This document shows positions 887 to 62,271 of a stretch of DNA of 64,000 nt, in pieces. The notes under the pieces were generated by a model. That model saw only the letters and a program-made list of their open reading frames with translations. It made no database searches and was not told where the DNA came from. Both the position numbers and the translations under genes were made by a program. Numbering within the stretch: the stretch's first letter is position 1; the number at the start of each line of letters is the position of its first letter. This DNA comes from Mycteria americana (lineage: Eukaryota; Chordata; Aves; Ciconiiformes; Ciconiidae): the NCBI RefSeq assembly GCF_035582795.1, contig NC_134365.1:137295077-137359076 (forward strand). Direction: 5' to 3'.

Positions 887-1118
887 TGCCGAGTCCCTTG
901 GCCTGGCTGAGGAGCGCCTCCGAGTCCACCTGCAGCTCCACCTGCTCCGGGCTCTGCACGGCCGGCTCCACGCCCGCCGCCACGCCCGCCGCTGCTGCCG
1001 CTGCCGCCGCCGCCGCCCCCTCCTCCTCCTCCGCGGAACTGCCCCGTTCCTCAGCCGAGAGCAGCTTCTCCTCGCCTGCCCGCTCCAGCCCCAACCAGCT
1101 GCCCAGGCCGCGCAACAT
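887..1118 (-). CDS. SYAP1: SYAP1 exon 1 (synapse-associated protein 1), N-terminal coding exon
   Basis: The reading frame starts MLRGLGSWLGL and ends LLSQAKGLG followed by a GTGAGT splice donor (exon end A|gtgagt, phase 1), 77 codons plus one base. The opening and the final 'LL-QAK--G' match the start and first-exon end of vertebrate SYAP1, a BSD-domain protein linked in the literature to AKT1 phosphorylation downstream of growth factors. The BSD domain lies in later exons outside the window. Between the conserved ends is a low-complexity acidic and alanine-rich stretch: EEEE near residues 30-33, then about ten consecutive Ala at residues 35-44, encoded by GC-rich triplets. Head-to-head placement with CTPS2 matches mammalian gene order and supports the call. 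Confidence 0.88.
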
Positions 1119-4622: not shown

Positions 4623-4788
4623 ATGAAGTACATCCTGGTAACTGGTGGTGTCATCTCAGGCATTGGCAAAGGGATCATTGCAAGCAGCATTGGCACCATA
4701 CTGAAATCATGTGGTCTACGTGTCACTGCAATCAAAATTGATCCTTACATAAACATAGATGCTGGAACCTTTTCACCATATGAACATG
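4623..4788 (+). CDS. CTPS2: CTPS2 exon 2, coding part (residues 1-55 and first base of Gly56)
   Basis: Encodes [10 protein letters not shown] through SPYEH and ends ACATG|gtacga in phase 1. The exon probably begins at 4583 after tttgtcattttag, giving 40 bases of 5' UTR; a second AG at 4589-4590 is an alternative acceptor. It contains the nucleotide-binding glycine loop and the [10 protein letters not shown] segment. The frame stays open upstream of the ATG back to 4323, through the intron boundary. Confidence 0.96.
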
Positions 4789-10700: not shown

Positions 10701-13700
10701 ACTGCAGCTATGGATTAGAGGATTGATCAGCAATTGGTAGGATTGATTCTGTGTATTTGAGAACAGAATTATTTATGACATCTGATTATTTCAAGGACAG
10801 TCACTGAAGACTTTGTGCTGTGTTGGACATTCTCCATTTATTAACAAAATCCAACTTTTGGAATATTCTTCTTCTTCTACCTGAGTCAATTATATTGAAA
10901 CTTTTTATCTGAAAGAAAAAAACAAAATAAACCTGACCTAAATTAGGGCCAAGTGGTTTCAGCCACAGAATTTCTTATATAAGTAATAACAGTGGTGCCA
11001 TTTCTGTTTCTGGCATATCGTGGCTCTGTTTGGATACGTTTGCTTCCTGCAAGTGTTATTACTTGCAATGACTTTTCTCTTTTAACCTGTAACTGCTCTG
11101 TTAGTAGATGTTAGTTGCTATTTGAGCTTTCAAAATGTGTCTTTCCAGCCTAACGCCACTGGCGAACAGAAGACAAAACCAACACAGAACAGTGTTCGAG
11201 CGCTGAGGGGTCTAGGCTTGTCTCCAGATTTGGTGAGTCAATAAATACAGATTTTTATTTATAGGTCATCCTGAAGTGTCCTTGCATAACCTGTGTTCAA
11301 AGAATAAGCCTTAGTCTCCCATGAAAGAGAAGAATTTTAGAAGAAATGCAACATATATGCTGCACTGCTTCACTAAAGCCACAGGAAATCAAATTACTCA
11401 AACTGACTTTGTTAACTTAATTCAACTAACTCCTTGCAATATTTTGGGACTATAGCTATGTTCTTCTTCTAAAGGGATCTTTGCAGAAAAATCAGTCTGC
11501 ATTGCTAAAAATAATCTAAAGTCTTGGTTCACTTTGTGGGAAGACCTAGAATGCTTCTGGCTTCTAACATTCTTTCACAAATTTCTTTTTATGCATGATT
11601 AAGAAGAAGCAATCCTACCTTTGAAGTACAGCCTTTAAAAATATTCCTGTTTGGAAATATAAAATGTGTGGGTGAATCTTCAAAGTAAGGTTCCCCAATT
11701 TCTTTCATAGAATCATAGAATAGTTTGGGTTGGAAGGGACCTTTAAAGGTCACCTAGTCCAACCCCCCCACAATGAGCAGGGACATCTTCAACTAGATCA
11801 GGTTGCTCAGAGCCCTCAACCTGACCTTGAATGTTTCCAAGGTTGGGGCATCTACCACCTCCCTGGGCAACCTGTTCCAGGGTTTCACCACATTCATTGT
11901 AAAAAATTGCTTCCTTATATCTAGTCTGAATCTACCCTCTTTTAGTTTAAAACCATTACCCCTTGTCCTATTGCAACAAGCCCTACTAAAAAGTCTGTCC
12001 CCATCTGTCTTATAAGCCCCCTTTAAATATTGAAGGGCCACAATAAGGTCTCCCCGGAGCCTTCTCTTCTCTAGGCTGAACAACCCCAACTCTCTCAGCC
12101 TTTCCTCATAGGAGAGGTGCTTCATCCCTCAGATCATTTTTGTGGCCCTGCTCTGGACCTGCTCCAACAGGTCCATGTCTTTCCTGTGCCGAGGGCTCCA
12201 GAGCTGGACACAGTACTGCAGGTGGGGTCTCACCAGAGCAGAGCAGAGGGGCAGAATCACCTCCCTCGACCTGCTGGCCACGCTGCTTTTGATGCAGCCC
12301 AGGATACGGTTGGCTTTCTGGGCTGCGAGTGCACATTGCTGGCTCATGTCTGGCTTTTCATCCACCAGTACCCCCAAGTCCTTCTCTGCAGGGCTGCTCT
12401 GAATCCCTTCTTGCACCACATAGTATAGTGAACCTAAAGCCAGCAACTTTCACCTCACGCCAGTTGGCAAATGATGACAAATGCTCAACTCTTTCCATTC
12501 TTTCTCCTCAGTGCTCTAGTATGTGCTTATTCCCTGGATGCAGTGTTTGCCTCCCTGGCACTTTTCCTTGGGAGCAGAGAGGAGACATAAGTAGATTTCG
12601 GCTCCCTGTTGTGATACCTGCCATTGGAGACGTTAATGTGCTTGGTCAAGTGTTGATAGCACTGAAGCCAGGGCAGCACAGCTTCAAATGCCTGTACAGC
12701 CCCAGTTCAAACTTATACTCCTGTCTTCCTGAGCTGCAGCTGGTGCAGCTGAAGACACGCTCTGTTTCTAGGTCTGCTTCAGGAACAGAAAAGGATAATT
12801 TTACTCTCTCATGTGAGGCTGCTTGTTAAGTCAAAGGATATTTTTCATACTTGATTCTGGAAGTTGTTGAGCACTTTCCATTCCCATGAAGTCTACTGGG
12901 AGAAAAAGCTTCCTAGCCCTTCTCAGAAATGAGAGTAGTGAGAATAGTCACTGTTCCTGTATAATATTTATATCCTCAAAAAGGAAAAATGGTGCTTAAA
13001 AGGATAATGACACAACTAAATTTTGTGTTGTGCTTCTTTCTGATTTTTTTTTTTGAACTCTTGCATTTTACATTTATCAAAAAGCATGTTTATAACTACA
13101 AAACCAATGGCTTTATAAATAGGCTATGTGAAGGATGTGTTAGGTAGCTTCAAGTTGTTGTGACCTGGGAACTGTAATCAACTTGTGGAGGGAAAGACTT
13201 TTATTAATGCAGTGCTGCTCTATATTCCAAGCTTCAGGGCCTAAATTTCAAAATCTCTCGAGGTCCTAATCGCATATGGAAAGTTGCATGTGATTTTTGA
13301 AGGCCTTTCAAAAATAATTTTGAAGGCCTTTCAAAAATAAATGTGAAGATAATTGCCAGTGCGTGACTTCCCCACCCCCTCCCCCAATTAATTTTAAAAG
13401 CCTGTTAAGTATGTGTGTGTAATAAAAGGAAAACAGACTAATCTAGTCATTTTCTCACATCTTGAGTTCTTGCCTGGGGCAGTTCTGGGACTGCCAGAAG
13501 TGCAGTACTTTTTTTTTTTTTTTTTTTAAACCGCTGCTGTTGACCACTAAAGCATAGAGAGATTACACTCTGAGCAAAGCCTCTTGGTGCTGTTGTAAAG
13601 TTGCTTGGGCACTGCTTCAAGAAAATCTTTAAATGGTTGTTCTCTTGGGCAGGGGCCTAAGGCCAAGACAGCACATGGGGAAGCTCCTAGAACAGCAATC

Positions 13701-16700
13701 AGGAGGGCTTCCTTCATAAGCTGTGCTGCCGGGCTGCCTGACCTAAACTTGGCTAGCCCTGTTCTTAATACCTGCTGCCTCGCTGTCTGGTTCCAGGCTT
13801 CCCTGAGGTGGCATGCTGGGCCATTCTCAGCTGTGTATGTGCAGGAGCCTTTATGTTCTCCATGGGGTGTTCTGAGTGCTTAATTGAATACGCTATATCT
13901 GCAGATATAATCGACTCTGTTACAGCATTTTGAAAACTGATTATATGCTTGTCAGTGCTGCCCTATTCAATTGAATTGTTCCTCATCTTCTTTGTATTAT
14001 GTTTCTTTGAGATGCATCTCCACCACTGTTACTGTAGTTTCGTATTTTAATGCCGGTTCTGATGTTTTTGATTTCTGTGACTCCATTAACTTTAAATTTG
14101 TCTCAGCAACATGGATGATAGATTTCAAAGTGGATCTAATCATGTGCTCATACCATCAAGGTTTATGGATTATGTCTTCAAACAGTACCCAATGTTTAAG
14201 TATAAATTGTGCTTAATTGAATAGAATGTACAAATTGTTTCATAATTCTTTTTTGATTATTAGAATGTGCGCTACTTTTCCCTTATACTTGGCATTGCTT
14301 TTCTATTTCTAGAATTTCTTGCAAGGGTAGGGGAAGTTAATTAGACTTCATCAATATCAGTGTAGCTAAGCTGCATTCTAGCAAGGTGATCAAAGATCAG
14401 CTACAGGTTTCTGAATAAAAAAAGGGCTTAATGCATTAAGTAGTTGCATTTGCTAGAAAGATGGGGAAAATAATGACTGTTGTGGTTTTAACCCCAGCCA
14501 GCAACTAGGCACCACACAGCTGTTTGCTCACTCCCCTCTAGTGGGATGAGGGAGAGAATTGGGAGATTAAAAGTGAGAAAACTCATGGGTTGAGATAAAG
14601 ACGGTTTAATAGGTAAAGCAAAAGCCGTGCGTACAAGCAAAGCAAAGCAAGGAATTCATTCACTGCTTCCCATGGCCGGGCAGGTGTTCAGCCATCTCCA
14701 GGAAAGCAGGGCTCCGTCATGCATAACGGTTACTTGGGAAGACAAACGTCATCACTCCAAACATGCCCCCGTTCCTCCTTCTTCCCCCAGCTGTATATGC
14801 TGAGCATGATGCCATATGGTATGGAATATCCCTTTGGTCAGTTGGGGTCAGCTGTCCCAGCTGTGTCCCCTCCCAGCTCCTTGTGCCCCCCCCCCCCCCC
14901 CAGCCTGCTCGCTGGTGGGGTGGGGTGAGCAGCAGAAAAGGCCTTGGCTCTGTGTCAGCACTGCTCAGCAGTAACTAAAGCATCCCTGTGTTATCAACGC
15001 TGTTTCCAGCACAAATCCAAAGCATAGCCTCATACTAGCTACTGTGAAGAAAACTAACTCTATCCCAGCCAAAAACAGCGCAATGACTTAATTGTTTAAC
15101 AGGATCATGCTACTTTCTGTTACACTTCCAGTATTCAAATAACTTAAGGCAGTAGTAGACTAAGTAATCAATACGCATGTTGAGAGAGCAGTTCTGCATT
15201 TCGAGTTAGTTGCCTGAAGTTACATAATGCAAAAAAACCCCTTCCAACAAACACTAAAACACATGCTTATTTTCTTTCTTGGTAAAAATTGTCAATATTT
15301 TCTAAAATTCCCAAGTTTTACATGAATCAGCAAAATAATAGCAGAATAATTGCACCAGGAAAAAAACCACAAAATTATGAAACAGTTTTCTTATCTTCAG
15401 CCTCCAATATAATATGCAATATAATATGCAATATAATGGCATATTTTGCAATATATTTGCAAATATATTTATATTTTGCAATATATTAAATTGCAATATA
15501 TATTTTATTTTGCAAAATATATTTTATATTTTGCAATATATTAAATTGCAATATAATTGCATAATTCTCCAATATAATATGCAATATAATATGCAAATTA
15601 ATTTGCATATCATGATATGCAAATGAAGAATTATGAAATAGATGCTGAATTACTGAAATAGTAGAAAACATGCATATAAGCTAAGTATTATTGCTCTAAA
15701 TTTAGCTGATAAGATCACAATATTTCTTTTGATTCATCGTATTATTCATACTGACAGAGCTGTTAGACTTTACGTAAAGAGTGTTACAATAGTAGCTACA
15801 AGAAAGGAGAACATGAGGAAGCAGTATTACAGAGAATGCCAAAGAAAGATTAAAGTATGGGCAGGTGACAGATTTACTTCTGCCTTCCTAGCACATATTT
15901 GTGCATGATGATATATCGTAGAACTCCAAAAGAGGGGAAGAGAAAACAGGCACATTTGTTTGTGCTGTGCTTCCAAAGGAGATTAATTTCTTCATGAACA
16001 GTATTGAGGATCTTCTGTTGGTTTGCCTAGTAAATATTTAAGATTTTTCCTTCTGTTATGATAGATTGTCTGCAGAAGTGCAAAACCTATAGAAATGGCA
16101 GTGAAGGAAAAGATTTCCATGTTTTGCCATGTGGAGCCTGAGCAGGTCAGTAGCTTACTGTTTTATTCATCATTACTTAAATATGTGGGAAAGCATACAA
16201 ATATTTCTGTGCATTTCTGTTTTCAGCTTCAGACTGTTTCATTAATATGTAAGTGTTTCTACAATTTTTATCTTGCTGTCATGTATACTATAGCACTTTA
16301 AAAATATTGGGAGTTTATAGGTTAAATTTTATGTCAAACAGTCATTAAGAATTTAAATGCATGTTATGTAAAAAGTTAATAAAAGGAATAGATTTTGAGT
16401 GCATGGTTAATTGCTATACATAGTTGTGAAGACTGTGCAGTTTCAAGCTATGGTTGGTTATTGTCCATAAATCATCTCGAGTGGTTATAAATAACAGATG
16501 AACAAAGTGCGGTTAAAGCTAGGGGTTTTGCTTATGTCCTGTCGTGGTTTGAGGCCAGTTGGCCACTAAGGACCACACAACTGCTCACTCACCCTCCACC
16601 CCCCCTGCCTCGGTGGGATGGGGAAGAGAATGGGGGAAAAGAAACAAACAAAAACAAACAAAAACCCCGTGGGTTGAGATAAAGACAGTTTAATAGGACA

Positions 16701-19700
16701 GCAAAGGAAGAGGAAAATAATAATAATAGTAATAATGAGAAAAGAATGTACAAAACAAGTGATGCACAATGCAATTGCTCACCACCCACTGACCGATGCC
16801 CAGCCTGTCCCTGAGCAGCGATTGCTGCCCCCCGGCCAACTACCCCCAGCTTATATACTGAGCATGACGCCATATGGTATGGAATATCCCTTTGGCCAGT
16901 TGGGGTCAGCTGTCCTGGCTGTGCCCCCTCCCAGCTTCTTGTGCACCTGGCAGAGCATGGGAAGCTGAAAAGCCCTTGACTAGTGTAAGCACTGCTTAGC
17001 AACAACTAAAACAACCCTGTGTTACCAACATTATTCTCATACTAAAATCCAAACCATAGCACTATACCAGCTATTAGGAAGAAAATTAACTCTATCCCAG
17101 CCGAAACCAGCACAGTATCCACCCCTTATTCTATACCATTTACGTCATGCCCAGGTTCTACAATTTCCAATACATTCAATTAATTTAATCCCCATTAATT
17201 TGAAGGATTTAAAAATCCTGCAGAAATGCCTTTGTCGATCTTCTCCAGCCAGGGAGAGACAACTGGAAGTTCAGTCAAACAAAAATGGTGTGTGTTTTTC
17301 TGGCAGTATCAGGCCATGTGTAAGCATGTACATACTGAGATTGCAATTGCAGTTATTACACCAGTCTAACTGGACCAAGAGTCCCACGTTTAACTGAACT
17401 TCCCTAAGAGGTCGCTAACAGGGAGGGAGCTGTCTTCATGGCACTGGGTTTTTTTCCACAGTTCTGCCTTTTAGGGTAGAAGGTCAATAGTGGTACCAGT
17501 CACAGCTTTCGTGACAAGCTGAGTATATGATCCCGAGCAGAGTGCTGCACTCTTCTTGCACTGTTCTGGCTAGCTCAAATGTCTGTCTGCAGCACTCCAT
17601 TGTGTAATATAGGTGTGTCCCTGGCAGTTAGACCCAGTAGACTGAACTGGGGTGCTGCTAGGTGCCGTACTGTGTTGCAGCCTTTTTTTTTTTTTTTTTC
17701 CTTGTCATAACTGCATTCATCAGAATTCTGCAAAGCCATTCTTTAGTCCCCTGTGTGTCTTGAAATCAATGAACCACTTCTGGATTTCAGAAGACGCTGG
17801 CCACTTGTCTATATATTCCCTAGAATGATCCTGGATTTCTTGTGAACTGAAGGATTGGATGCATCATCAGTCTTCTTCCTGGAGCTATGTGCAATGCCAG
17901 CAGAGAAGAAGCTACAGTTTATTTTGTGTCTAGAACTATGGTTTACAATCTCAAGGGGCTCAATCTTTTCAGTCTACCTTTCCCATTTATTTGCTGTCGT
18001 AGAATCACAGAATAGTTGAGATTGGAAGGGAGGTCATCTGGTCCACCCCCCCTGCTCAAGCAGGGCCACCTAGAGCCAGTTGCCCAGGACCGTTATTCAG
18101 GCAGCTTTTGAATATCTCTAAGGATGGAGACTCCACAGCCTCCCTGGGCAGCCTGTGCCAGGGCTCGGTCACCCTCACAGTGAAAAAGTGTTTCCTGAAG
18201 TTCAGAGGGGACCTCCTGTGTTTCATTTTGTGCCCATTGCCTCTGGTCCTGTCACTGGGCACCACTGAAGAGAGCCTGGCACGATCTTTGCACTCTTCTC
18301 TCAGGTATTTCTGTACGTTGATGAGATTTTCCACCCCCACCCCTGAGCCTTCTCTTCTCCAGGCTGAACAGTCCCAGCTCTCTCAGCCTTTCCTCAATTG
18401 AGAGATGCTCCATCCCTTAATCACCTTCATGGCCCTTTGTGAGCCATGGACTCTTTTCTAGTATGTCTGTGGCTCTCTTGTACAGATCATTAATGAAGAT
18501 GTTAAACAGGACTGGACCCAGTACTGGCCCTTGGGGTACTCTGCTAGTTACTGGCTTTCAACTAGACTTTGTGCTGCTGATCATCACCCTCTGGGCCCGG
18601 CCATTCCACCAGTTTTCCTCCCTGTCTGATCATCCTGCCCCTACATGAACAGGTTGTCTATGAGGATCTTACAGGAGACAGTGTTAAAAGCCTTCCTGAA
18701 GTCCAGGTAGACAATATCCACTACTCTCCTCTCATCTGCCAGGCCAGTCACTTCATCATAGAAGTTTATCAAGTTGGTCAAGTATGACCTCCTCTTGGTG
18801 AATCCATGCTGACTACTCCTGATGATTTTCGTATCTTTTGTGTGCCTGGAAATGGTTTCCAGGACTGTCATAACTAGTCCATGAAGACCACGTGCTATTT
18901 TGCCCACAGACTTCCTCTAAGTGGATTTCTTTTTTTAGTTTGCTTTTATCAAGTGAATCCTCCCTCCTCACTTCAGTGTATGTTCCACCAAAACAAAACC
19001 AGTGTCTTCAGCTTGTTTCAGGATTATAAGTCTCCATAGTCAGCATGGCTGTAACCTAGAGCAGCTAGTGATTCTTTCTTAATTCATATCTTTAGGATGG
19101 TAGCTGCCAAGTTTGGAAGAACAGTTGGATAAGCCTTATTCCTACTGTAGGAGGGCTGTGTTTACTGTATTATTTTTGCTGTTGAATGGGCACATAGAGA
19201 GGCATGGGGCAGCATGCATGTGTACTTATGTGATGAACAGAAGTAACTCCAGGATAACTAAGCGAGTATCCTTTACTTCTCGTTATCAGGGAAGAGAATG
19301 CTTGTACTCAGGATTCTGAACTCTGTGTCTTGTGTAAGCCAAGTGCAATGAATGAACTTAACTGCCAGCAGCTTGGACACGGTTTATAAATATGTTCTTA
19401 ACTAAATGGTCCTTGAATGGACTATTCTTATTAATTAATTACATAACCTAATTCACTAACAAACTTCTTGTAGGAGACTGTTACAACCTAATTGGGTCTG
19501 TTTTGTTAGGTTCCATTTGTATTTTTTCTTTCCCAGTTAATAGTCTTCAAGTTTGTGAGAGAGGGAGAAAGAAGTGTTAGCAAGCATGACTGCTTGTGGG
19601 GCCAGATGTTTATATTAAAACTGATGCATTGACAGGCTTGACAAACTATTTTTATATGATAGTGTGATGAAGAAGTGAAACACATTTTTACCTTTTGGGT

Positions 19701-22700
19701 AGCTTTTTCCTTGTAGATTTAGTGGAACCTTAAATATTGGCTGTGCTGCCCTGCCCATTCAAAAGAAAAGTATTTAAAAATTAGAATGTATGTAGAATAC
19801 AAAATGCATGTAGTATGCAAAAAATAAAATGTATGTTTCCTATGAAAAATTTTTAGGTAAGTCTTTTATGTTACGCTTTTTTTCGTTAGGTGATATTTAT
19901 CCATGATGTTTCTTCCACTTATCGAGTACCAATCCTGTTGGAGGAGCAGGGCATCATTAAGTATTTTAAACAGAGGTTAAATTTACCTATTGATGACCAA
20001 CCAAGTGATCTTCTAATGAAATGGAAGAAGATGGCTGACAGGTATTCTAACTCCTGCTGCTTATTTTAGAATTGTTTTAATTCAAGTTAGGTTTTTAGCT
20101 GCTGTGAAGTCACCAAACTGGACTGGGGTCAGTAGCATGCTGCTGGTCAACACTTGTGAATAGTCTGGGTTTAAAAACATTGTCATTTTTGAGATTTTAG
20201 AAGATGTTTTGTGAAGTTAAAGAAAAAGCAAACACAATTAAAATGTTTTCTTTGTGAAAGTTGGTGTAATAACCGAAAAATTTGTTTTTTGTCAGATATG
20301 AAAGGTTGCTGAAGGTATGTTCCATAGCTCTCGTTGGCAAGTACACAAAACTAAGTGATTGCTATGCATCTGTTTTCAAGGCTCTGGAACACTCTGCACT
20401 GGCAATTAATCACAAACTGGATTTAATGGTGAGGATGTTTCTGGATTTTGCTTTCAGGAATACTTTGAATATACTGTGCTAGTTCCCATTGTGTGAGACA
20501 GTTTTAATTCATGTGGAAATTAGAAAATGAATCATGCAGATAAATACAGACTGGCCAAGCATCTCATTTTTTTGAAGAATTGTTTACAGATTTAATTACT
20601 TTATTTGGAACTAAACTTATCTGAAAGGAACACTGCAATTATGCAAAACTGGATCTGATGAAAAAGCAGACTTTACCTGCAAGTTTATATTTACTATCAA
20701 AGGTAGGGTTCACTTGTTCTCATGAGACTGCTTATCATGTTAATGAGATTAGTTTAAAGACAGGAGAAAATAGGTAAATTGGAAAGCAGTTTAGTTTCTT
20801 TTTGAGATCCAGTACTAGAAGCTGTTGCTCTTCATTTCAGTTAATATTCTGACAGCCATCCATTTTATCTTCAGCAGGATTCTAATGATACCAGAATTGG
20901 GCCATAAACTTAGTTTCTCCAAGATGGTAGTTTCTCCAATAAAGGACTATTTAGGGATCTAATTTGTCTCCTTTTACTGAGAATAGAAAGTTCAACTACA
21001 CAGGGAAAAACTGTTACCAGCTTTCTCACTGGTGGAACTGTCAGTTTCTATTGCTGAGTTTTGTTGTTAGGGTTGGCAAGTCAGGGGCAGAGAAGCAGTG
21101 TGGAAGTGTGTATTATTATCACTTAATGGGTACAGAGGGCATCTTAGCAACTTGCAGTAGTAAAACAGTAATAAATGGTCGCAAAGTATCAGCAATGACA
21201 TGCTGCTTTAGAGTGATGATTCATTAAATGATATAAGATAAATTGATCAAAGTGGGCAGTTGTAGGCTGTACTGCACTCACTAGGTTTTGGTCTCTGCCT
21301 GTCTCTGATCGAGGCAAGTTTGTGTGTTTATGCACTTTGGTAACTGCTGAAAATTGCCGAACCCCGTGACCTTTGTTGATCATTTCATTTTTCATGATAT
21401 AAAAAATAGAAGATATTAGAGTGAAAATTTCAGCATGTCAAAAGCTATGCATGGGTTGCTTAGATAATGCTTGTGCAAGGCTGTTTCCACTCAGCTCTAG
21501 AAAGTTTCTTACTGGAACCAATCACTTTTTGATGAGGAAGGTCATTAATATCCAGGATGGCTTAACAGGTCACTAAAGGCAGCAGGCCAAAAGACATAGC
21601 CACCATTCTGTTGTCTCAGTCCATCTACCCCAGAAAGAAACAATGTGAGCACCTAGAACAAGCAGGGGTGCATGTGTACTTCTTTAATGAAGCACAGAGT
21701 AATGAATACATAGAAGTCTTGTTTACAGTGATATTTCCAGTATCTTTTGGGAGAAGATGATAAGTTCCCTAAACCAAGAACACTGAGTACTAAAGAAGGA
21801 ATTTCTCTGGTAACGTACTTCTGTTTGCTTGAGAACACAGGTCACCAGGAATGTATCACCTCAGGTGTTTTCTTTTGAGTGATTTGGTGGAGAAGGTGAC
21901 TAGCCCTGTACCAAGATAGCCCTGTACCAAGATAACCAATTATGTTTTGTACCCTCGCATCACTGCTTGGTTCTGATGGACTGTTAATCAGATGGTGAAG
22001 TAGTTGAAGCAGCTTGTGATGATGTAGAATGTAGTCTTCACCGTGGCTTGCGCTGCTGCGGGCTCTGAAATCACCCTGTTGTTTTCTCACAGTATCATTC
22101 TGCCGCTTGTCAGGCACAGCAGTCGGCTGCAAATCCCTCGTCTTTTGCTTCTCGTTGCTGTCATCCCAGAACCCTTTCAAGTAGGGGAGGCATGCAGAGA
22201 TGCACAAACAAAAGCGAACCTGAACTATTTTTTCTGTAGGACTTCTTTACTGGGAGGAGTGGGTTGATTTATTCTCTGGGGAGGGGGAAGAGGCCCTTCC
22301 TATCAAGAGAAAAGGAAAAAAAACAGAAACTGCTTATCTTAGTGTCCTTCTACTCTTGTCCTCTATAAGGTATGCCGAATGTGGAGTAGTATAGAGACAG
22401 AGAACTGGTTGCTACCTGTCATGTAAAACAGCTAGGGAGCCACTCAAGAAAACAAAATAACTTCATGTTTAATAAGAGGAAATATTTTCTACATACTAAG
22501 GAACTTATGCATAGTGTTCACTGCTAAAAAGTATCTCTGAAATTACAGGGACTGAGCAGAATTCAAGTAAACTTCATGTGTTTATGTGACTAAGAAGCCA
22601 ATTGGTAGGTATAATGGAAAATAAAAAAAACCCCCAACAAATAAAAAACAAAAGCAAGCCCCAAAAATCAACCACCAGAAACAGCTTAGGAAGAAATAGC

Positions 22701-25700
22701 TTATGTTTTAAGGCTTAAGCTGTCTCCTTGCCCTTGAAGGGAAAGGGGAGGAGGTGTTATGGAGGGAAAAAATAAAATAAATATATTTGTAGGAAATAGA
22801 TAAGCTTTCCTCCACGGTAAGTTTTCTTCCACGGTATACATCCACACGTAGCTGGGAAGTACTCAGATCAGTTGGACATACACAAGTCCATGGGACCAGA
22901 CAAAATGCATCCCAGAGTGCTGAGGGAGCTGGCTGGTGTCATTGCGAGGCCACTCTTCCATCAGCTTTGAAGGGTCGTGGCAATTGGGGGAAGTTCTTGA
23001 TGACTAGAAAAGGGCAAATGTCGCACCAATCTTCAAAAAAGGCAAAAAGGAGGATCTGGGGAAATGGCAGGTGGTCAGCCTCACCTCATTCCCTGGGAAT
23101 ATTATGGAGCAAATACTCCAAAAAGTTGTTCCTATGTGCATGAGAAACAAGAAAGTGGGAACAGCCAGAATTAATCCCTGGAGATTTTCAGATCCTGACT
23201 GGAAATGGCCCTGAGCAATCTGCTCTAATTTCACCTGCTTTGAGCAGGGGTTGGGCTAGAGACATCTGAAGGCCCTTTCCAACCTACATGATTGTGTCAC
23301 TCTAAATAGTGTTTTATACTGGCAGCTACATAGTGGGAAATTTTTATGATATGTAAAATAACTGCTTTTAGCGAAAAAGTGAAAGGCACCAAGTCCACAA
23401 ATGCATGGTTAGCTTTGTGTGCAGCTAGCCTTAAGTTCGTTGGAGCTTTTGCATTAAGAAGCATGTGAATCGATGATTGCTGTGTGGTGCTGAAGCGTTA
23501 AAAGACAAGGGCTCCTACTGTACTTCCCTGCATGTGCTAACCTCCTTTTTAGTGTTTTTGTCCAAAGGCTCTCCATATAGTCCTGTGTTCTGAAGGAACT
23601 GCTTAATATTGTATGTGGCATCCAGCTCATAACCTAGCATCCACATATCTGAATGATGAAATGTTGATACTGCTTGAAGTGATAAATGTGCTGGATCAAT
23701 ATGTTTGGCAAGGAAACCATAATTAACTTCAACTGTAATTAGTTTCTCTTTCCAACCTCCCAGCATGATAAAAGTATCCTTTTAGTTTATCCTATAGTAT
23801 CCTACTAGTATAGAATAACAACATCCATAAGTAGTTATTTTTCTGTTGTATTTTTGATGCCTTCTTGAGTGTGGAAAAAGTAGAAAATGTTTGTTAGAAG
23901 GCAATCCTATCTGGAAAAATTCTTCCAGCAATCTTCTTGTTGGTTTCATTTCTCCACACACAAATGAGTTCTGTCATTTCAGATGATCTTGTTTTTATGG
24001 GGGATGGACTCTACAGCAGGATGCTATTAATGATGTTATTCTGAGAAAAAGACTGACAAAACCAAGAATCAAACTCTGATCTTTTGTGTCCCCGGTGCAG
24101 TACATAGCTGCCTCACTCATTTGCTCTATTGGTACCTCAGGAGCCATGCTTATTAATGACAGTAGAGGTTCTAATGTAGTATTTCTAGTAGGACATAGAT
24201 AACGAGTCTGCCTCCCTCTCTACAGTTGATGCTTTCACGTCAGTCCCCAGGAATGTCTTTCTCACAGGCTAGGCAATGTAGGTTTATCCAGTCTGTGATA
24301 AGGTTAGATAAACTGTGGCACCCAAAAGCTGGGAAAGTGAACACCCTGGCCACGTCTCATTTGGATGTCAGGATAAGGTCAGCACTACCCCTTGATTGGT
24401 GCCCTGATTTCCATAGGAAGAAAACTTAGGTACGCAGCTATGGAGCATTCTACAAGTCTGCTCGCCTGGAGGACTGGAAGCAGGCAGGGCTTTGGAGCTA
24501 CGTGCAAAGAAAGGGGCATGGATTACTGCAACTAGAGCAAATACTGGGTCTTCAGTGAAGTTGTTATGGGTTTATTGGAAAATTCACTTGAAACCCTAAT
24601 AGGTTTGTCTTAATGCTATTAAAAAGTTGGTTATATAGTGTATGCTGCTCTTTCTGTGGAAGAAATGACTATTTTACTGCATATTTTTCTGTATTAGTAC
24701 ATAGATTCAACAGAACTTGAACGTTCTACAGAAGCTGAGAACTCAGTGAAATATCACCAGGCATGGCACAAACTGTGCAAAGCAGAGTAAGTGGCATCAG
24801 GTATTCTGTATTCCAAATGCAGACTGTGATATTTATTTCATGTGATCAAAAATGCTTCAGTAAATCATTTCTCAGTGCATCCAAACTTCCATTACTTATG
24901 TAAAGGGTTAGATGTGCATGGTTGGTGACAAGCTTCAGACATAGCAAATTATAGTATCAATTTATATCCTCAAACTCTGCTTACTCTGCTTTAATCTCTT
25001 TAGACAAGTTGCAGTTGTTTGGTTGGTTTGTTGGTGGTTTTTTTTTTTTTGGATAGCTAGACTTTCTTTATAGTGCAGGTCAGTTCTCAAAGATTTTTCT
25101 TTGTCAACATGCATCATAGTGAAAGGCAGTTAGATAAAAGCTTAGTAAATGCTGGTGACACTCTGCAAATGTCTCTGTTAAGAATCATTGCCAGGATTTC
25201 AATTTGTATTTGTAAAGAATGCATTTTGACAACAAACAACATCCCATTTCTTCAGTATTACTTAGTAGACATAAAGTTTTGGTGTTAAGATCCTAGCATA
25301 GTGAATATGTAGCTAGTTTATTTAAGCAATACATATTTAAGTAGTAGGAATTTCACTGTGAAGCATGAGGTTGGTCAGATGAGGATTGGGGTGGGCAGAT
25401 GAGACAAATCTCCAAATTCTGTGTGTTCTGAATGGTCATACAAAACATGCCTTTCGTGCACTGTGCTTGCTTTATTATAACCTCAAAAGTCTTTCTTCAA
25501 TTTGTATGGACTTCCTTTGCTGGCTTGACTCTACAAGTTGGTTGCTTTATATATGGCTGTCATTACAGTGGCATTCTGGTCCCAGGAGGGTTTGGAATTA
25601 GGGGAACAGAAGGCAAACTCCAAGCTATCTCCTGGGCAAGAACAAAGAAAAAACCTTTTCTTGGTAAGACCACTAGAGGCAGAAATTATTGTGTTTTGGA

Positions 25701-28700
25701 GGTGTATAGAAAGCTAATTGATTTGATTTAAAAAAATCCACACCAACAAACACACACTAGGGAGAAATCCTGTCTTAGGGAAGTACATGTGCTGTTGTGA
25801 ATATTTGCCTTGTAAATAAAGCCCAGGGTCATAGTCACGTACTACATCTACTGTATAAGGAAGGAAGAAAAAGACTATCCCTGCTTCTTAGGTTTTATTG
25901 CTATATTCACATTTTATGTGGAGAGTGCTTCTCTGTAATTAAATCAGCATCATTATAGATATAAACCAGTGTGCAGAAAACATAGGTGTCTTTGGACACA
26001 TTTGCTATATTAAATCATTTTTGTTGATTTACTGGTATATTTTATTATGGTAAAGTCTAAAGATGCCATCTGGCCTATAAGCTGAGTGCTGTTTGTGTAA
26101 GTGCCCCTGAAGCTTTGGTTCCTACTCCACATTTCTTACAATTTTGTAAGTGACTACTTTGACTAGTTGCCAAAGCAAAATTTGAATCTGGATATACACA
26201 GTCTCTCAGCTTCTGTTTGTCTTTGTTTTTTTAATTGGTAAACTAGATGGGAGGAAAAAAAACTATTTCTGAAAGGGCTTAAAGCGCATAATTGTGTCAC
26301 ATGTATTTACAGTGTGCCAAGTTTGAAGAGTGAGTTTTACATTGACCAGCCATTTTTGTTTTAGCTTTTTGGTAAGTCTGTGTATATACACTGGGTACCA
26401 AGATTTCTAAGCAGTCAAGTTTAAGACAGAACAGCAGGTACTTTGTCAATCCTGCTCTTTGTCCTGTTAAATTCTGGGGTTTTTGTTTTCTCTTCTAGGA
26501 GTTTGCCTGGGGATGCAATTAGCAGTTGTGGAATTTGCAAGAAACTGTTTGAATTGGAAAGGTGAGCTCAGTATGCTAGCGTGAATATGATTTGCTTAGA
26601 AGAAATTTTATTCTATATGTGAAATGTATATCTATTATTAGAACTATTAAATAGATCCTGTGATCATTAGGTACTTAGCTCTTGCAACATGATCATTTTC
26701 AGCTAAGCACAGTGTGCTACCTTTCTGTACAAGGGAGTAGGAACTCCTGTTACACAGATTGCTTGAAACCTGCTTCTTGATCTAAGGAGCGTAGGAGAAA
26801 GTGTGCTTACAGTTCACCTCTGTAGTCTCTTTCTGGGGTGTGCAGGTGGTGAGGAGTAAAAAGTGAGAAGTGGTTTTCTCACTTGTTTTCATTGGTTGGA
26901 GTAGCCAAACCATAGCCATTTCAGTAGTAGTATGGAGAGATTTAGCTCACCAATGAATTTCTACCACTAAGAGCTGAGAGGAAAATGGTTTGGGAAGTAG
27001 GAAAGGGAGTGTGTGTGACTGAGGTCATATGCTTCCTGAGGTTGCTTCCAAAGTGGTGCAGTATGTGTTTCAACATGTAAGATTGTAGCTTAAATGGAGA
27101 CAAGCCCTAAAATGCCACAGAACTGTTATGATGAGTTTGTAGTGCATGTAGAACAATGGAAATCTACTGTCTTTGTTTTAAACTTATGTTTCAGATGCAA
27201 ATTCTACAGAATTTGACCCAGACACAGAAAACCCTGTTGTAAGTACAGATTTTTTTCTTTTAATAGTCCCTTGCCTTCACCTGCTTGCTTCTGCGGTTTG
27301 CCTTAGCTTTATTTTTGTAATTTTTCTAATAGTTTCCTTGGCTGTGGACTGATGCCGGGAGTAGACAATAACGATTAGGCTGGCTTTACTAGAGAATAAA
27401 ATATAAAGGGAAGCTGGAAAGTGTAGCACGAAGCTATTATCAAAATGTAAATGTATATAAAAGGCTAAGGATTATATAGGAAGCTGTTGAAAAATTCTTG
27501 TCTTTCCTTTATATAAATAGTATAAATAACCACTACACCCCTCCTCCCCCATGCATCTCACAGTCCTCCTTTTGAGAAAAATTTCAATGCTGTAGATATG
27601 ACAGGGCTCTCTCTATCATATGCCAATGGTAGAATTTGAGAGTGGAGTTCTTCCAGGTATCTCCTGGTTCAGAAGAGTATGGTATCACATTGTCATAATT
27701 ACATTGTCATCAAATAACATTGTCATCAGGAGGGGGTGAGTCACCCTTTGGAAGTGCTGGTTTCTCTCAACCCTTATTCTGGGGGTTGTTCACAGTAACT
27801 GTCTCCAATGCAGAGCTCCACACTTAGCTGAAGTCAGGAACATGGATACTTGTCTGCTGCAGCCCTATTGGCAGTTTCTTCTGTTACAAAAATTGTAGTG
27901 TGTATTAGTACAATATATCTAGGACAAAATTTTATTCCACAAGTAATTAACCGAGTGATTTGCAGTTTGCCTTCAAGGGCAAGTAAGGTGTATATGTTAA
28001 AGAGAAAATTATGTGGACGTAAAATTAAGAAAACAATGGAGTGAATGTATGTGTCATAGAAGATTAATACAGCGTTTACAATTGAAGCAGTATGCTTGCA
28101 GTACGTATAATGGATATTCTTTTGTTCTGAGCTACATTAAGGTTCTGAAATTGGTTATTACCAGTCACATTTCAGCATCTTAATCTGACCTTTGACATCT
28201 CAGTTCTGGACAAGAAAAAGATGTAAATCATTCCAAGGGGGAAATTTGCACTATCAATAATTATAACTGCTAAATAATCTGTCTTAGCAGAGTCCATCTT
28301 GTGCTAAAAACTGTTTAGATATTCTATATAATAACAAATCAATAAAAACGATTGGAAGAGAAGCAGATTAGTGAAGCTTGTGAACTACCGAACTGATGTA
28401 GATGTTTCATTATCCAAGAAAGTTAATTGGAAACACCGTATCAGCACTGATAATATCTTGTGATGCCATTGTGTGGTTCAACTGAGTGCTAACTTAGGAC
28501 CAAAGCAGTGTACTGTTCTTTTAGTTCCTGCTCCTTTGGAAACTGAAGAGGGAGAAGAAAGGCACTGGTGAGGCAGTAGTTCTATTTCCTTTTATTTTTA
28601 AGAAAAAGGAAAAAAGACAAAAGTTCAAATACATAGTTTGGTAGGGGAACTCAGGGGTAGCCATAATGCAGCTACTTACATCCCTTCTTAATTTGCTAAG

Positions 28701-31700
28701 CATTCAAATACTCAGAACTGTACTCACCAAAGTTGATAGTTTCTTCTAAAGTACATATAAAATATCTTGGTCTACTTTGCTTTCCCTTTGTCTGCATCTA
28801 TGGAAATTTGAATCTTTTTTATTAGAAATAAAAACTGAGATTGTCAGTAATCATGTAACTCAGAATTAAGCTTCCAAAGGAAAAACAGGTGGCTGAAATA
28901 ATGAGAAATTATATTACTGGCAACTGTCTCTCAATTAAAATAACACAAGTTATTGCACTGTAGAAGAGCATTGCGTTAGTAAAAAGTTTTGAGCATCGTA
29001 AAAGGTTTTTATGTAATGAGGCAATTGTGACTTGTTCTGTTTTGAACAATGAGGAATACACAAGTGAAGGTGCAAATGTAGAGAGTTGCCTGCAATGCTG
29101 AATATGTTTCATTTTAGCTGTTGCTCTATTTCTACTGACTATCATTACAACAATGTTGCTCAACCTGGGTTCTGCAAAAGCACCCATGAGTAACTTTATA
29201 TAGGAGAGAAACCCTGTATAACTCTGTATTGCTTGTTTTGGGGAATATTGGTATCAAGTATATTGGCATGTAAATGACTGCAAGTATTGTAGAGTTAAGA
29301 TTTCAAATACCTTGGAAAAAATAGTAGTCTCTGCATACAAAAAATGGAAGTTAATGACTCAATAATGTAAAACAGGCAAAATTGTGTTTTTAAAATACTG
29401 TAGGGGAAAAAAAATTCCTAAAGCTGAATATCTATGTGATGAAAACTGAAAGGATATGAGACCTAGAATTTGAAAATATTAATAAGCTGTGATTTATAAG
29501 CTGTGTTTGAGAGATTTGAAGTTGCTATTAGATGTTTTCCTTTTGGCTTAAATGTGTAGTCTGAAGGAAAAAAAATGCCCTCTGATAATGGCAGTTATCT
29601 CTATTCACCAGACCATACCATTTACACTATCAAAATACCACCTTAAGGTTTTGGCTTCAATTCCTCTTTAACACAGGTTTGATTTCAGTAGGGAAAATGA
29701 GGGAGGTACATGAGCACTGATCGCAGTCCCTCGAGTTCTTGATCTCATCTTGGTTGATAATTTGCAGGTCATGTTCCCATTATATATTCTTAAGCTTTCT
29801 GCTTTACTTTCTAGCCTTTTGGATATTAATGATAGGTAAATTGTTACTGTTCTTTGCAGGAAGGTAGCTGTTCAGAAAAGTAATGCGTTTGCTTGAGAGT
29901 AGTGCTTCGTATGAGTTTTCTGTTGCAAATGATAATTATAAAATTAACTCCTTTAAAGGGAAACTGTGTAGTCTGTGAACTGCTAATGAACTGGATTCAC
30001 TGGATGGCAAGAGAGTTATTTTTTTTGTTCCATATCCCTCATCTTCCTCCACTATTAAACTTAGATTTTTTTTTTTTTTTTGGATGAGCCTTTTAATGAT
30101 GTTCTTTGTCAATTTTATTGTAACTGCATCTAATGCTGTTTTCTAGAAAAAAAAATACTCTTTCCAGAAATAATTCTACTGCACTTTTTTTTTTTTTTTT
30201 AAATTTAAGAAAGCTAATTTTCATTGTGACCGTTGCTCTTCATGACCTATTGCATCTTGTGTAGGATCATGAAACTTCAGATATTGTACTGGGTAAAATA
30301 AGTGCATTTTCTATGAACACAAGAAATTGTGCAGAAATAGATTTTGCCAGTAGGTGACACTGTTATAACATGTTTGTTTCTTGACGCCCACTTTTCCTAT
30401 TCAGGATGTCAGTAACCTGATTGAATTAAAAAATTTCTAAGGTTGTCTAAGAGGTGAAAAGGAACGTCCTGCTCATGCAAAAACACCTCTTAAAATTCTG
30501 TGATTTTACTTATGTGTGTAAAGTAGCTAACGTAGCATAGTAAGGAAGTGTGTGTGGGGTATATTTAGTTTTGAAGTCAAAGAATATTGTTAATTTAGAA
30601 TAAATTTTTTTCATAAACCAGAAAAAAGTAATATGATTCTCTTTTCTTCCAAGAAACATAACACATTTTAACAACTGAAGGGCTTGTGTAAAAGAATGGC
30701 CCGGGACCCTGTAGAACATTCATATCACGTTTAAATATCATAGTTTTTGAGGCTTCTATTCATGCGTCGCTGGTGTGGAGTAGTATTTTCCTCATTTCAT
30801 GGAGGGGAAATTCAGCAACAGGAACCACTGTAGTATGGGATCTTGAATGCACTTGATAGGCTTTGCAATTAAGTTGAGTCTTTAAGTCCTTAAGTAACTC
30901 TGAGATCTAACTGATTTATCAGGATAATGGATGATGTTGGTGTTAAAATTCAGTCCAAAATTCCAAGTTCTCTAGTAGGATTAGTGCCTAATCCTATTTG
31001 TCTGAATGACTTGTCTTCAAAAATTTCCATTCTTCTCATTTCTCTTCTTTTTCACTAATTTCCTCTTAAAGTAAATAATAATGTCCATGAATTACGTGTG
31101 TGAAAATACATATGTCACAGGGAATCATGCAATGAAAAGGTTAAAACTGCACCAAATAAATGTAATGAATGTTTGAATTGCAACAGCAATCGCTCCGTTC
31201 CTGTATATACTTATGTATTCCCATTTACAAGATTCATAACAAAAGTACATGCGTAAATATAATTTAAAATGAACATGTAATGTTACAGTCATCATACTTA
31301 GCATTGTTGCATTGTTAATGAAAATAAGTACTTTATGTTTTAAAAATTTGAACTGTTTACTGTATGGAAGTGTCGCCTTATGTGAATGATGAAACTGAAC
31401 TGGGAGGAGCATTGGATAGTATACAGTAGGGGACACTCCTCAAATGGAATGAGACATCTTTCCTTTTGCGTGTTTTAGAAACAATTTGATTTGAATTGCT
31501 CTAGAGGTCAAAATAATAGCTCAGGTAAAGCAGGGTTTGTTAAAAGACACTTTCTCAAATGTAGCGTGAAACAGAAACAGGTAGTTCTGAACTAGTTGTG
31601 AGGCAGCTTAGCTGGAAAGTGTGGCTAGTGAACATGCAGGAAACACAAGACAAGATGTACTTTCTTATATGTCAAATCTTTATTCTGTACTTTTAAAAAT

Positions 31701-34700
31701 CATAACATATCTATGGGTTTAGGTGTATGTATAATGTACGTGAACGCCAGGCTCTTCTCCTTCAAAGCAGTGATATTCATTCTTGCAGATGCCTTACTGT
31801 TCTGTACCAGTTAGCTTTTTTACAATCGTCAGAAACTCATCAAAGTTGACACTTTCATCATTAGTTTTGTTCAATGATTTAATTATGTTATCAAGTGAGA
31901 GCTGGTCCTGTTTTTATAGGGAAAGAATGAAAAAAAAAAAAAAAGAGTATGAAATAAATAGATTGCAATGACTATTTTCCTATAAGGAATATTGCCAAGA
32001 AGTGATGCAGTCAGTAACAGTCAGTGTTACTTGAAGGTGTTACTGGTAGTGTTGTATTTACCAGTTCTGCTGGTTAAATGAGAAATACAGTGCCTGCTAT
32101 TGCCTGCCAAAAATGTTAACAAAGATATGATAACCATTTGAGAAGTATCAAGTATTACTCAGACAGATTACTTCAGTCTTATGGGTAAATTTGGAATTTA
32201 GGAAATGGAGCAGGTGGAATAGCTGCAGCATTTACACAGTTACCGATAAAAATTAGTATGCATATGATCTACTGCTTTATTAGGTACTAATTTGGGCCCT
32301 GCATACACTGTTTGAAAACATATCTCTACTTTCATTAGGCTTTGGATCAGGACCTGAGAGTCTCTTTCCCTCCCCTTTACCCCTCTTTACTAGGAATACT
32401 GTATTCACTGTTAAAAAATTCTTGCTAATGTATTAAATCTAGTTTAGGTAATTAGCTCCTTTTATTTGTCGAGCCTGGTAAGAGTGCATGTAATCCTCAT
32501 GCAGTGACTATTCTGATCACATCCCTGATCAGGCTAGTTAAATAATATAAAAATAGTTTTGATTTATAATTTAAATTTTTAAAACGTTTTCTTTCTTCAT
32601 ACTTTATGTCTGTGCATGTTTTGTAATGTCCTGTCCTGCTTTTATGTTGATTTATTATGGTGCCATATATTTCTGCAAACTGAGTAGATGCTTGAAAATG
32701 TCTGATATCCAGACAGAAAACATCAGTATTGCTTTTCCTGAACACTTCCATTTCCACGTATCTGCAAAAATGGGTATGGTGCTAAATTGTCTACAGCTAA
32801 TATAAAAGGCATTATATTTCTTAATTTGCCATCACATTTCCTATTAACTTTTGGCAATTAATTTCTGACATGCTTTTTAAGGGAAAAAACCTTTGTGTTT
32901 TATTACTTTTTTTTTTTTTTTTTAATTAGCCACTTCATGTTAATGAAATGACTAAAATGGATTACTGTAGTTCTCAAAATACTGGATTTTTCTATTGAGG
33001 CACAACTTCTTTCAGACATTTAGCAAAAATTGCTTTTGTCAGCTATCCAAAACACAGTATTTAAGGATTTGTCTAGCAAAAGAATCTAAATTGAATCCCA
33101 ATCTAATTCAGGAAAGGTCTGGCAGAGAATATCTATGAAATCAGAACCTAGATTTTTTTCCAGCTACAGGAAATGGGTATTTCTGTCTCTAGCTTGGTGG
33201 AATCTCTTTTCTTTTCTTGGTGTCTTTCTGGAACGGCAAACCTTCTTTTATTTTGTGATGGTAGGAACTTAACCTAGATAGAAATTGGCTCATGTCTCTT
33301 ATTTTTAAATTTGTCCTACTGATTTACTTGGTTTATAGATTTTTCTATATTATTTTCTAGATTCAAGATGATTTATTTAGACTGAAACAAAAAATATTTT
33401 ATAAAATTCAGATGCAATATTCTAGGTGAAATTTGGCTTACATAAAAAACCCCAAAACCCCCAGCTTCTTAGATTTTTGCATTTTATTTCATAGGGCTTT
33501 GTTATAAACTCCCTACTCAGATACCTGTTTGGAGCTACTGTTCATTAATGTGAATTAACTTTTATAAACTGACCCTTATTTAAGGATTATTTATGGAGAC
33601 AGTGAAACCATTTGGGCACAATAATCTGCCTTGGAACATCATTGCCTGTATTTCCTTTTTCCTATCCATTTCATAGGAAGCACAGTGAATATAATAGGAG
33701 TGAAACTTACCTGCAGGTACTGTGCAAATTTATTCTGAAGTAGATTTTTCAGCCCAGCAAGGGACAGTGCACTGGTGCTACCCTCCATTAAAGCATACTG
33801 GGTAAAATACTTCAGAACGTTATCATTGAGTAAATGTTCCATGTTTCTCAGATGTTGTCTTGAAGGATAACTGCAAACAAAGCAGACAATAACAATCCTG
33901 TGCATCGGAATTTTGCAATACATCTGACACCCTGTTCATTGGTTTACTAACCATGTGAAATGATTAATACTTAACCTAGATGAAAAGAGGTTTGTTTGGT
34001 TTTTTTTTTTTTTTTCTCTAAAACTGGATCAACTCTCCCAAGAAAAAAAATAATCTAAGTTAGGTTCAAAGATTTGAAACACCCAATATGTTTAGGTTAT
34101 GCTTACCTCACTCAAAATCCAGAGCTTTTAAATGTATCCAGCAGAAGTGAGAGTCTGAGAGTGGGGCAACCTTTATAGTTGCTTGCATGCTCCACCCTAA
34201 TTATGAAACTAGCATTTGTCATTGAGTCAGTGCACTAGTTTTATTGTGTTTTCAGTAGTCAAAGGAATAGGATACTTTAGCAGTAGTAATGAGTAATACT
34301 TTTTTTATATCTCTGAAATGTGTCGGCATCAGCATCCACCACCACACTTGATGTAAGTTTATTTGCTCTTTATAGGCCATCCTGGAGAGGTTTTCTCTCT
34401 TAAATTTGTGTATTTTACACTTCAAGATGTACCACACCCAAAGAAGCCTGAAAAAGGCTCCTATGGGGATATGTATAGCATTTGTTATTATAATGGACTT
34501 TTGAAAAGTGGTAAATATAAAATTGTTTTAAAAAGATCCAGATAAATAAAAAAAAATATGAAGAAGCTACTTGCCAGTTGTGTGAGTTGATAATCACCAA
34601 TGCCAAAGCCAGTTCTCCAAATTTTGTGCTATTTCTTAGCACAGGAGAGTAATAAATTTGCTCTGGGATAAAATTTTGGTTGCTACTATTAAGAATCAAA

Positions 34701-61989: not shown

Positions 61990-62271
61990 GTGAGTGTCTT
62001 ACTTGTCTGTAGTACTTTCCGCATCTGTTAAAACCATGTAAACTATAGGTTGTTAAATGGCATGTAGGCACAATATTTAGCTGTCATAACAGCCAAGATC
62101 ATGATTGGGGGATAGTGCTGACTCCACCTGTGTATTACAATGGGTGAAGATTCAGAGGATGTTAGGAGAAGTCTTACACTTCTCAAGGATTGTGTGTGTA
62201 TTTGATTATCAGGGAGAGACACACTCCTTTTCCAAAAGGTCATAATTCTACCTCAGTGGGATATGGCTCTG

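Follow-up and report, generated by a model that had tools for sequence, protein, structure and literature searches.

The 64 kb of Mycteria americana DNA analysed here (the whole stretch, called the window below) contains an S100 gene that lies antisense to CTPS2, within one of its introns. We read it as an orthologue of S100G in which calcium binding is likely to have been weakened or lost, and which is either retained for a calcium-independent role or decaying; we would give this reading a probability of around 0.7.

Gene structure and genomic setting

The gene runs from 34177 to 31679 on the minus strand, and its sequence is read as three exons with a product of 81 residues. The TATA box (TATAAAG, 34171..34177) lies in a stretch resembling one that is translated in the Passer model P0003. 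Exon 1 (34107..34150, 5′ end approximate) is non-coding and is followed by the donor GTAAGC after 34107. Exon 2 (33711..33870) begins at 33870 after the acceptor TTTGCAG and comprises a 5′UTR (33870-33843) and the coding sequence of residues 1-44 (33842-33711), including the pseudo-EF loop. The start ATG at 33842 lies in the context AAACATGG, and the exon ends after 33711 at CTGCAG/GTAAGT. Exon 3 (31679..31907, counted to the end of AATAAA) begins at 31907 after the acceptor AAACAG. It encodes residues 45-81 (31907-31797), including the canonical EF loop (residues 57-68, 31836..31871), followed by a TAA stop (31796-31794) and AATAAA (31684-31679). Exons 2 and 3 are supported by both sequence and alignment; the loop coordinates come from the sequence and its substitutions from the alignment. 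The joined frame has 81 codons, with a phase-0 intron between the coding exons, and the protein terminates at residue 81 without a C-terminal extension. P0003 reads from exon 1 into exon 2 in the frame expected from our join.

The sequence-only reading had proposed a three-exon minus-strand gene for an 81-residue protein, with TATA box, splice consensus, strong start context, stop and AATAAA. This is borne out by the joined frame and by a Pfam S_100 match of 31.4 bits (cut-off 22) that places the product in the S100 family, and every signal was found at its proposed position. It had also counted three matched splice pairs; three exons give two.

Alignment to the host gene scored 858.8 bits for CTPS2 versus 796.1 for CTPS1. 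Plus-strand matches to CTPS2 residues 1 to ~417 extend over 4623..26560 (4623-4790, 7115-7285, within 7531-7797, 9520-9651, 11146-11235, 16065-16148, within 19857-20045, 20294-20428, within 24698-24808, within 25558-25725 and 26489-26560); these are match ends, not splice sites. A small plus-strand CTPS2 exon (27195..27238, bounded by TTTCAG and GTAAGT) directly precedes the intron of ~30 kb that carries the S100 gene, and matches resume beyond it at 57541-57648, 59726-59788 and 61887-61991 (57541..61991, plus strand). CTPS2 exons on the plus strand thus flank the gene on both sides, confirming the antisense nesting that had been claimed. In human, S100G lies antisense within CTPS2 as well. 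A minus-strand open reading frame at 888..1118 (3′ end approximate), head to head with CTPS2, resembles SYAP1 exon 1. A passage on a wallaby virtual map, using opossum markers, gives the order GRPR-S100G-CTPS2 (PMC3170641), and neighbours of S100G are also given in a second paper (PMC8922954).

Strong tblastn matches of 12 S100G queries to the 64-kb window were confined to the two coding exons, and no tandem second copy of the kind present in pigeon was found there. Neither tRNA genes nor Rfam families were found in the 64-kb window. It contains no exact DR3 vitamin D site; one with a single mismatch lies at 34063-34077. There are 31 such one-mismatch sites where 16.5 are expected by chance, and near-identical copies recur at 11747, 18031 and 62294. 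The pattern was therefore dropped as a candidate vitamin D element.

Relationship to S100G of other amniotes

The best matches among single-domain chains are to calbindin-D9k (41.1 bits, versus 32.6 for S100P), and a turtle relative scores 53, compared with 41.8 for the next family, S100A1. Twelve of 27 database proteins (P0001-P0012), S100-G of other birds and turtles and an alligator model, are 67-78% identical over the whole length. Ten are of 81 residues and two have N-terminal extensions, so that all are of equal length once trimmed. Mammalian calbindin-D9k has 79 residues, aligns without gaps over residues 12-77 and has no C-terminal extension; its gene has a phase-0 intron in the linker.

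A phylogenetic tree had been proposed as a check on identity, and all three that were calculated place mammalian, lepidosaurian and turtle, crocodile and bird forms together in a single S100G clade. Support was 99/99 (37 S100G rows, including that of the window, against six human S100 proteins), 97/95 (32 S100G rows against fifteen other S100 proteins) and 100/100, the bootstraps being unsettled in the last two. Carettochelys and four lepidosaurs were present only in the 99/99 tree. Sequences omitted from the trees were Elgaria P0139 (a model without part of loop I, omitted also from the lepidosaur count), Anser P0013 (exon 2 mis-spliced, giving a gap at the position of loop I in the alignment), and chicken P0153, turkey P0155 and P0144 (exon 3 only). 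Secondary movement of an S100A gene into this position was supported by none of the trees.

The linker between the loops has 26 residues in the 18 archelosaur and in 13/13 mammalian tree rows; elsewhere it has 29 (S100A1, B, P, Z and A12), 27 (S100A6) or 24-27 (lepidosaur S100G). This length, together with a host gene that is the same as in mammals, argues against another S100 gene, either S100P/Z-like or S100A, having moved into CTPS2 in archelosaurs. We regard such a transfer as very improbable, the single S100G clade in every tree being contrary to it. In its favour the archelosaur stem branch is long (0.85), two of the three trees (90/81 and 84/73) group mammalian and lepidosaurian S100G apart from archelosaurs, and holding the mammalian and lepidosaurian forms together raised the likelihood (p-AU 0.641). 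Joining archelosaurs with S100P was not rejected by the AU test (p 0.153), but the species-tree arrangement, in which they join lepidosaurs, fits equally well (p-AU 0.547). Because of the S100P result and the position of archelosaurs in those two trees, orthology judged from sequence alone is not airtight. Sequence, trees, linker length and host gene taken together identify the locus as the bird orthologue of S100G.

Relatives were found in lizards, tuatara, turtles, an alligator, birds, a monotreme, marsupials and placentals, and from this span S100G is dated to the amniote ancestor or earlier, as had been suggested. Its presence in birds is not new, contrary to the impression of an unknown gene; the name 'protein S100-G' has already been given by automated annotation in several bird, turtle and lizard species. 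Our literature search found no study of S100G in birds, and no relative was confirmed in the viral and genome contigs searched. A quail study from 2024 still presents D9k as the intestinal calbindin of mammals, with D28k as the counterpart in birds (PMC11672450); the presence of S100G across amniotes is contrary to such a description of D9k as mammalian.

The two EF-hand loops

Loop I lacks the closing Glu of a calcium-binding calbindin, having Gly in its place. Gly is found here in 18/18 archelosaur tree rows (including that of the window), while Glu is present in 6/6 lepidosaurian, 13/13 mammalian and 6/6 human S100 tree rows. Among the matches listed, the alignment has Gly in 14/14 rows of exon 2 only and Glu in 92/92 others; the trees took in 13 of these 92 remaining rows. 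The searches behind it used the best 120 of 447 and the best 120 of 156 proteins, and further S100G rows exist. Judged by alignment, replacement of this Glu by Gly is common to turtles, alligator and birds among the matches listed, and is a difference from mammalian calbindin-D9k.

Loop II has been altered in this species. A canonical loop has Asp 1, Asp or Asn 3, Asp 5, Gly 6 and Glu 12; here there are Asn 1, Thr 3, Asp 5, Glu 6 and Glu 12. The changes relative to the majority of other archelosaurs are D1N, N3T, G6E and S9N, so that the Ser or Thr of position 9 is gone too. Among the matches listed, the canonical loop is kept in 21/21 other archelosaur rows, all with D57 and G62 (N and E here), and the loop also differs from the DKNGDGEVSFEE of 68 of the 92 other rows. 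The Pfam EF-hand_1 score is 16.5 bits, under the cut-off of 25.4, compared with 29.1-39.5 in nine relatives. Asn also occupies position 1 of loop II in the lizard Elgaria (P0139), whose row is missing part of loop I.

There are eight private substitutions, four in the 12 residues of loop II and four in the remaining 69 (Fisher p 0.015, for a test chosen after the loop was noticed and resting on these eight). In simulated neutral paths without stops, at least four of eight changes fell inside loop II in 1.9%.

Loss of Asp 1 and Gly 6 (both invariant in those 21 rows), of Asn or Asp 3, and of the loop I Glu, together with the low EF-hand_1 score, makes it improbable that this is an ordinary calbindin-D9k-type buffer of reduced affinity that still uses loop II. 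Such a buffer would be consistent with an S100 domain score above cut-off and with Asp 5 and Glu 12, which remain, so that weak calcium binding is possible. We conclude that calcium binding by the protein is probably weak or absent, and the expectation of a working calbindin is not upheld.

S100G might instead be decaying, dispensable since calbindin-D28k does the job, with loop II the first to go. Both loops are altered, and the Elgaria model suggests that decay may occur. Among the 27 database proteins identity does not exceed 78%, and annotation there thus covers no close relative. One paper (PMC5324283) detected no S100G in broiler breast muscle. The open frame says little, because 67% of simulated neutral paths to eight changes also stay free of stops. 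Against this, only 4 of 69 residues outside loop II are private (7 in Phalacrocorax and 13 in Carettochelys), and the gene retains an intact TATA box, stop codon, poly(A) signal and splice sites at both introns. Decay as the whole explanation is considered unlikely.

Possible function and significance

Under our preferred reading, an S100G orthologue with calcium binding weakened or lost, the gene would have been inherited from the amniote ancestor inside the CTPS2 intron, on the opposite strand and with its own TATA promoter. The 81-residue chain would still adopt the fold of a small, monomeric S100 unit with four helices; with weak or no calcium binding it would not be a calcium ferry. If it acts at all, it would most likely do so by contacting a partner independently of calcium, much as S100A10 does. 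Of the outcomes under this reading, we put retention for a calcium-independent role at even odds, slow decay of a dispensable gene somewhat lower, and residual weak calcium binding well below either.

The possible likeness to S100A10 is failure to bind calcium, predicted here from the ligand loss in both loops. The changes in the S100A10 loops are different from those here, and S100A10 lies outside the S100G clade. A review of human S100 proteins describes it as the sole family member that cannot bind calcium, and it differs further in forming a heterotetramer with annexin A2 (PMC7461550).

We tentatively suggest that archelosaur S100G was no longer a two-site ferry by the time of the common ancestor, that in this lineage it may have become a second calcium-blind S100 protein, kept by selection for a task that needs no calcium, and that D28k took over calcium transport in birds. 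The pattern suggests why birds rely on D28k: one calcium site was lost early, and the second has seemingly been lost in at least one bird lineage. How birds and mammals differ in calcium transport, a textbook contrast, thereby becomes testable through the S100G proteins, lineage by lineage.

Gene structure and chromosomal setting of the window S100G

The window S100G gene lies on the minus strand, with a TATA box (TATAAAG) at 34177-34171, a short exon 1 whose 3' end is at 34107, exon 2 at 33870-33711 with its ATG at 33842, and exon 3 starting at 31907, followed by TAA at 31796-31794 and AATAAA at 31684-31679. Joining the exons gives an 81-residue frame that is interrupted after residue 44 by a phase-0 intron. 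Rechecking the window sequence reproduced exactly the exon junctions of an earlier sequence-only reading; the three splice pairs it counted are in reality two. Twelve database proteins (P0001-P0012, from the 27 of one protein search) match the product over its full length with 67-78% identity; ten have 81 residues and two have an N-terminal extension. The translation of the Passer model P0003 crosses from exon 1 to exon 2 and keeps the frame of the window join, so the exon joins have some outside support, from gene models and not from reads. The similarity to P0003 extends through the TATA region, where the window carries a stop; this is compatible with a 5' untranslated exon.

CTPS2 exons on the plus strand flank S100G on both sides, and the intron that holds it runs from 27239 to about 57540. 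The host exon peptides to residue 417 score 858.8 bits against human CTPS2 and 796.1 against CTPS1. Human S100G is, we assume, likewise nested antisense within CTPS2. Head to head with CTPS2, and facing it at 1118, is a minus-strand first-exon-like reading frame (888-1118) that we take to be SYAP1; it contains a run of ten alanines. Elsewhere in the window are an AT-rich tandem array whose periods of 19, 34 and 55 overlap (15441-15563), near-identical DR3-like motifs (AGGTCATCTAGTCCA type) repeated at 11747, 18031 and 62294, and pieces presumably derived from CR1 retrotransposon reading frames (11793-12128, 12129-12449, 18056-18382 and 60541-60984). A virtual map of the wallaby using interpolated opossum markers is described as having the order GRPR, S100G, CTPS2 (PMC3170641), and CTPS2 and S100G are given as adjacent entries for a human deletion (PMC8922954).

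Family assignment and age

The window protein scores 31.4 bits with Pfam S_100 (cut-off 22). In a PDB search its top match was an S100P-annexin chimera that contains the domain twice (57.1 bits); the leading single-domain chains were calbindin-D9k (41.1) and then S100P (32.6). For a turtle relative the corresponding scores were 72.2 for the chimera, 53 for calbindin-D9k and 41.8 for S100A1. The linker from the end of loop I to the start of loop II has 26 residues in 18 archelosaur rows (turtles, alligator and birds) and, likewise, in 13 mammalian S100G rows, whereas it has 29 in S100A1, B, P, Z and A12; it is 27 in S100A6 and 24 to 27 in six lepidosaurs.

An S100 tree had been called for by the sequence-only reading. 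The S100G rows separated from the human S100 proteins in trees of 32 versus 15 rows (97/95), 32 versus 6 (100/100) and 37 versus 6 (99/99), each resting on few columns (82-88), with the bootstrap unsettled in both 32-row trees. The human sequences other than S100G were entered by hand. A grouping of archelosaurs with S100P survives the AU test (p 0.153, 32 versus 6 tree). The results are divided on whether archelosaurs and lepidosaurs unite within S100G, as expected from the species phylogeny: this grouping has 75/77 in the 32 versus 6 tree and p-AU 0.547 in the 37 versus 6 set, while the competing union of mammals with lepidosaurs has 90/81 (32 versus 15) and 84/73 (37 versus 6). The window S100G sits beside passerines with modest support (96/76, 37 versus 6 tree).

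Among the matches listed, entries labelled S100-G occur in birds (Sylvia, Passer, Tinamus, Pogoniulus, Pterocles, Phalacrocorax and Eurypyga), turtles and lizards, so that the avian gene is already known to databases; models under other labels occur in pigeon, alligator, goose, tuatara, chicken and turkey, and S100G is also listed in echidna, marsupials and placentals. S100G is therefore at least as old as the amniote ancestor, the date that had been suggested from the window alone. We note that a clear S100G of the turtle Platysternon megacephalum (P0008) is labelled 'neurexophilin-1', a likely misannotation, and that a snake model (P0132, Candoia aspera) fuses two S100A-type proteins into a 212-residue product. 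Two S100G-type proteins of Columba livia (P0028 and P0030) have consecutive locus numbers (Q9966_007614 and Q9966_007615), which suggests a tandem duplication; one has a longer branch and keeps loop II. A literature search found no dedicated study of avian or reptilian S100G among the matches listed, as judged by title and abstract opening. One chicken paper mentions S100G a single time, as undetected in the breast muscle of broilers (PMC5324283). Wheeler et al. 2016 present a figure of S100 orthologues per species that covers S100G and sauropsids, so avian S100G may have been scored there already (PMC5072561).

The calcium-binding loops

A glycine of the window loop I (the N-terminal pseudo-EF loop) aligns, ungapped, with the bidentate glutamate of bovine calbindin, which we take to be E27. 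In the tree rows this position is Gly in all 18 archelosaurs, the window included, and Glu in 6/6 lepidosaurs, 13/13 mammals and 6/6 human S100s. In the wider alignment it is Gly in 16 of 17 archelosaur rows (the mis-spliced Anser row has a gap) and in 14/14 exon-2-only rows; the remaining 92/92 rows among the matches listed have Glu, nearly all being mammalian entries, with four bovine calbindin constructs and two unnamed rows included. The first S100 loop is described as binding otherwise through main-chain carbonyls (PMC13044992), so that loss of the glutamate would leave the archelosaur-type loop I with no side-chain ligand. Separately, lacertid, worm-lizard and tuatara S100G (P0126, P0128, P0129, P0130 and P0131) have Gly early in loop I where mammals have Glu (KGGDP vs KEGDP).

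Loop II (the canonical EF loop, residues 57-68) is altered in the window alone among the archelosaur rows compared: it carries Asn 57, Thr 59, Glu 62 and Asn 65. The 21 others, chicken and turkey included, all keep Asp 57 and Gly 62, with Asn or Asp at 59 and Ser or Thr at 65; Asp 61 and Glu 68 persist in every one of these rows and in the window. EF-hand_1 scores 16.5 bits in the window vs 29.1 to 39.5 in nine relatives (cut-off 25.4). Eight residues are private to the window among archelosaur rows, four of them within loop II (Fisher p 0.015). For the 16 other full rows the number of private residues ranges from 0 to 13, with at most one in loop II. When the window coding DNA was mutated at random in simulation until eight residues had changed, at least four of the changes fell in loop II in 1.9% of the stop-free paths. 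The loop was noticed before testing, so these statistics are descriptive. As 67% of the simulated paths acquired no stop, the open frame is weak evidence of selection.

Fold, calcium and function

The chief rival explanation is that the window S100G is in slow decay. In an S100-G model of the lizard Elgaria multicarinata (P0139), position 1 of loop II likewise carries Asn in place of Asp, and a section of loop I is missing; provided the model is correct, such decay may happen, and this is a possible independent case.

On the reading that we prefer, the window S100G has probably kept its fold, and calcium binding has probably been lost or become very weak. S100A10 is described as the one S100 protein incapable of calcium binding (PMC7461550), and offers a precedent for a useful S100 without calcium binding. 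A calcium-blind window S100G may have a partner. S100G is given as the monomeric S100 of humans (PMC7461550), so any such partner would be contacted by the S100G monomer.
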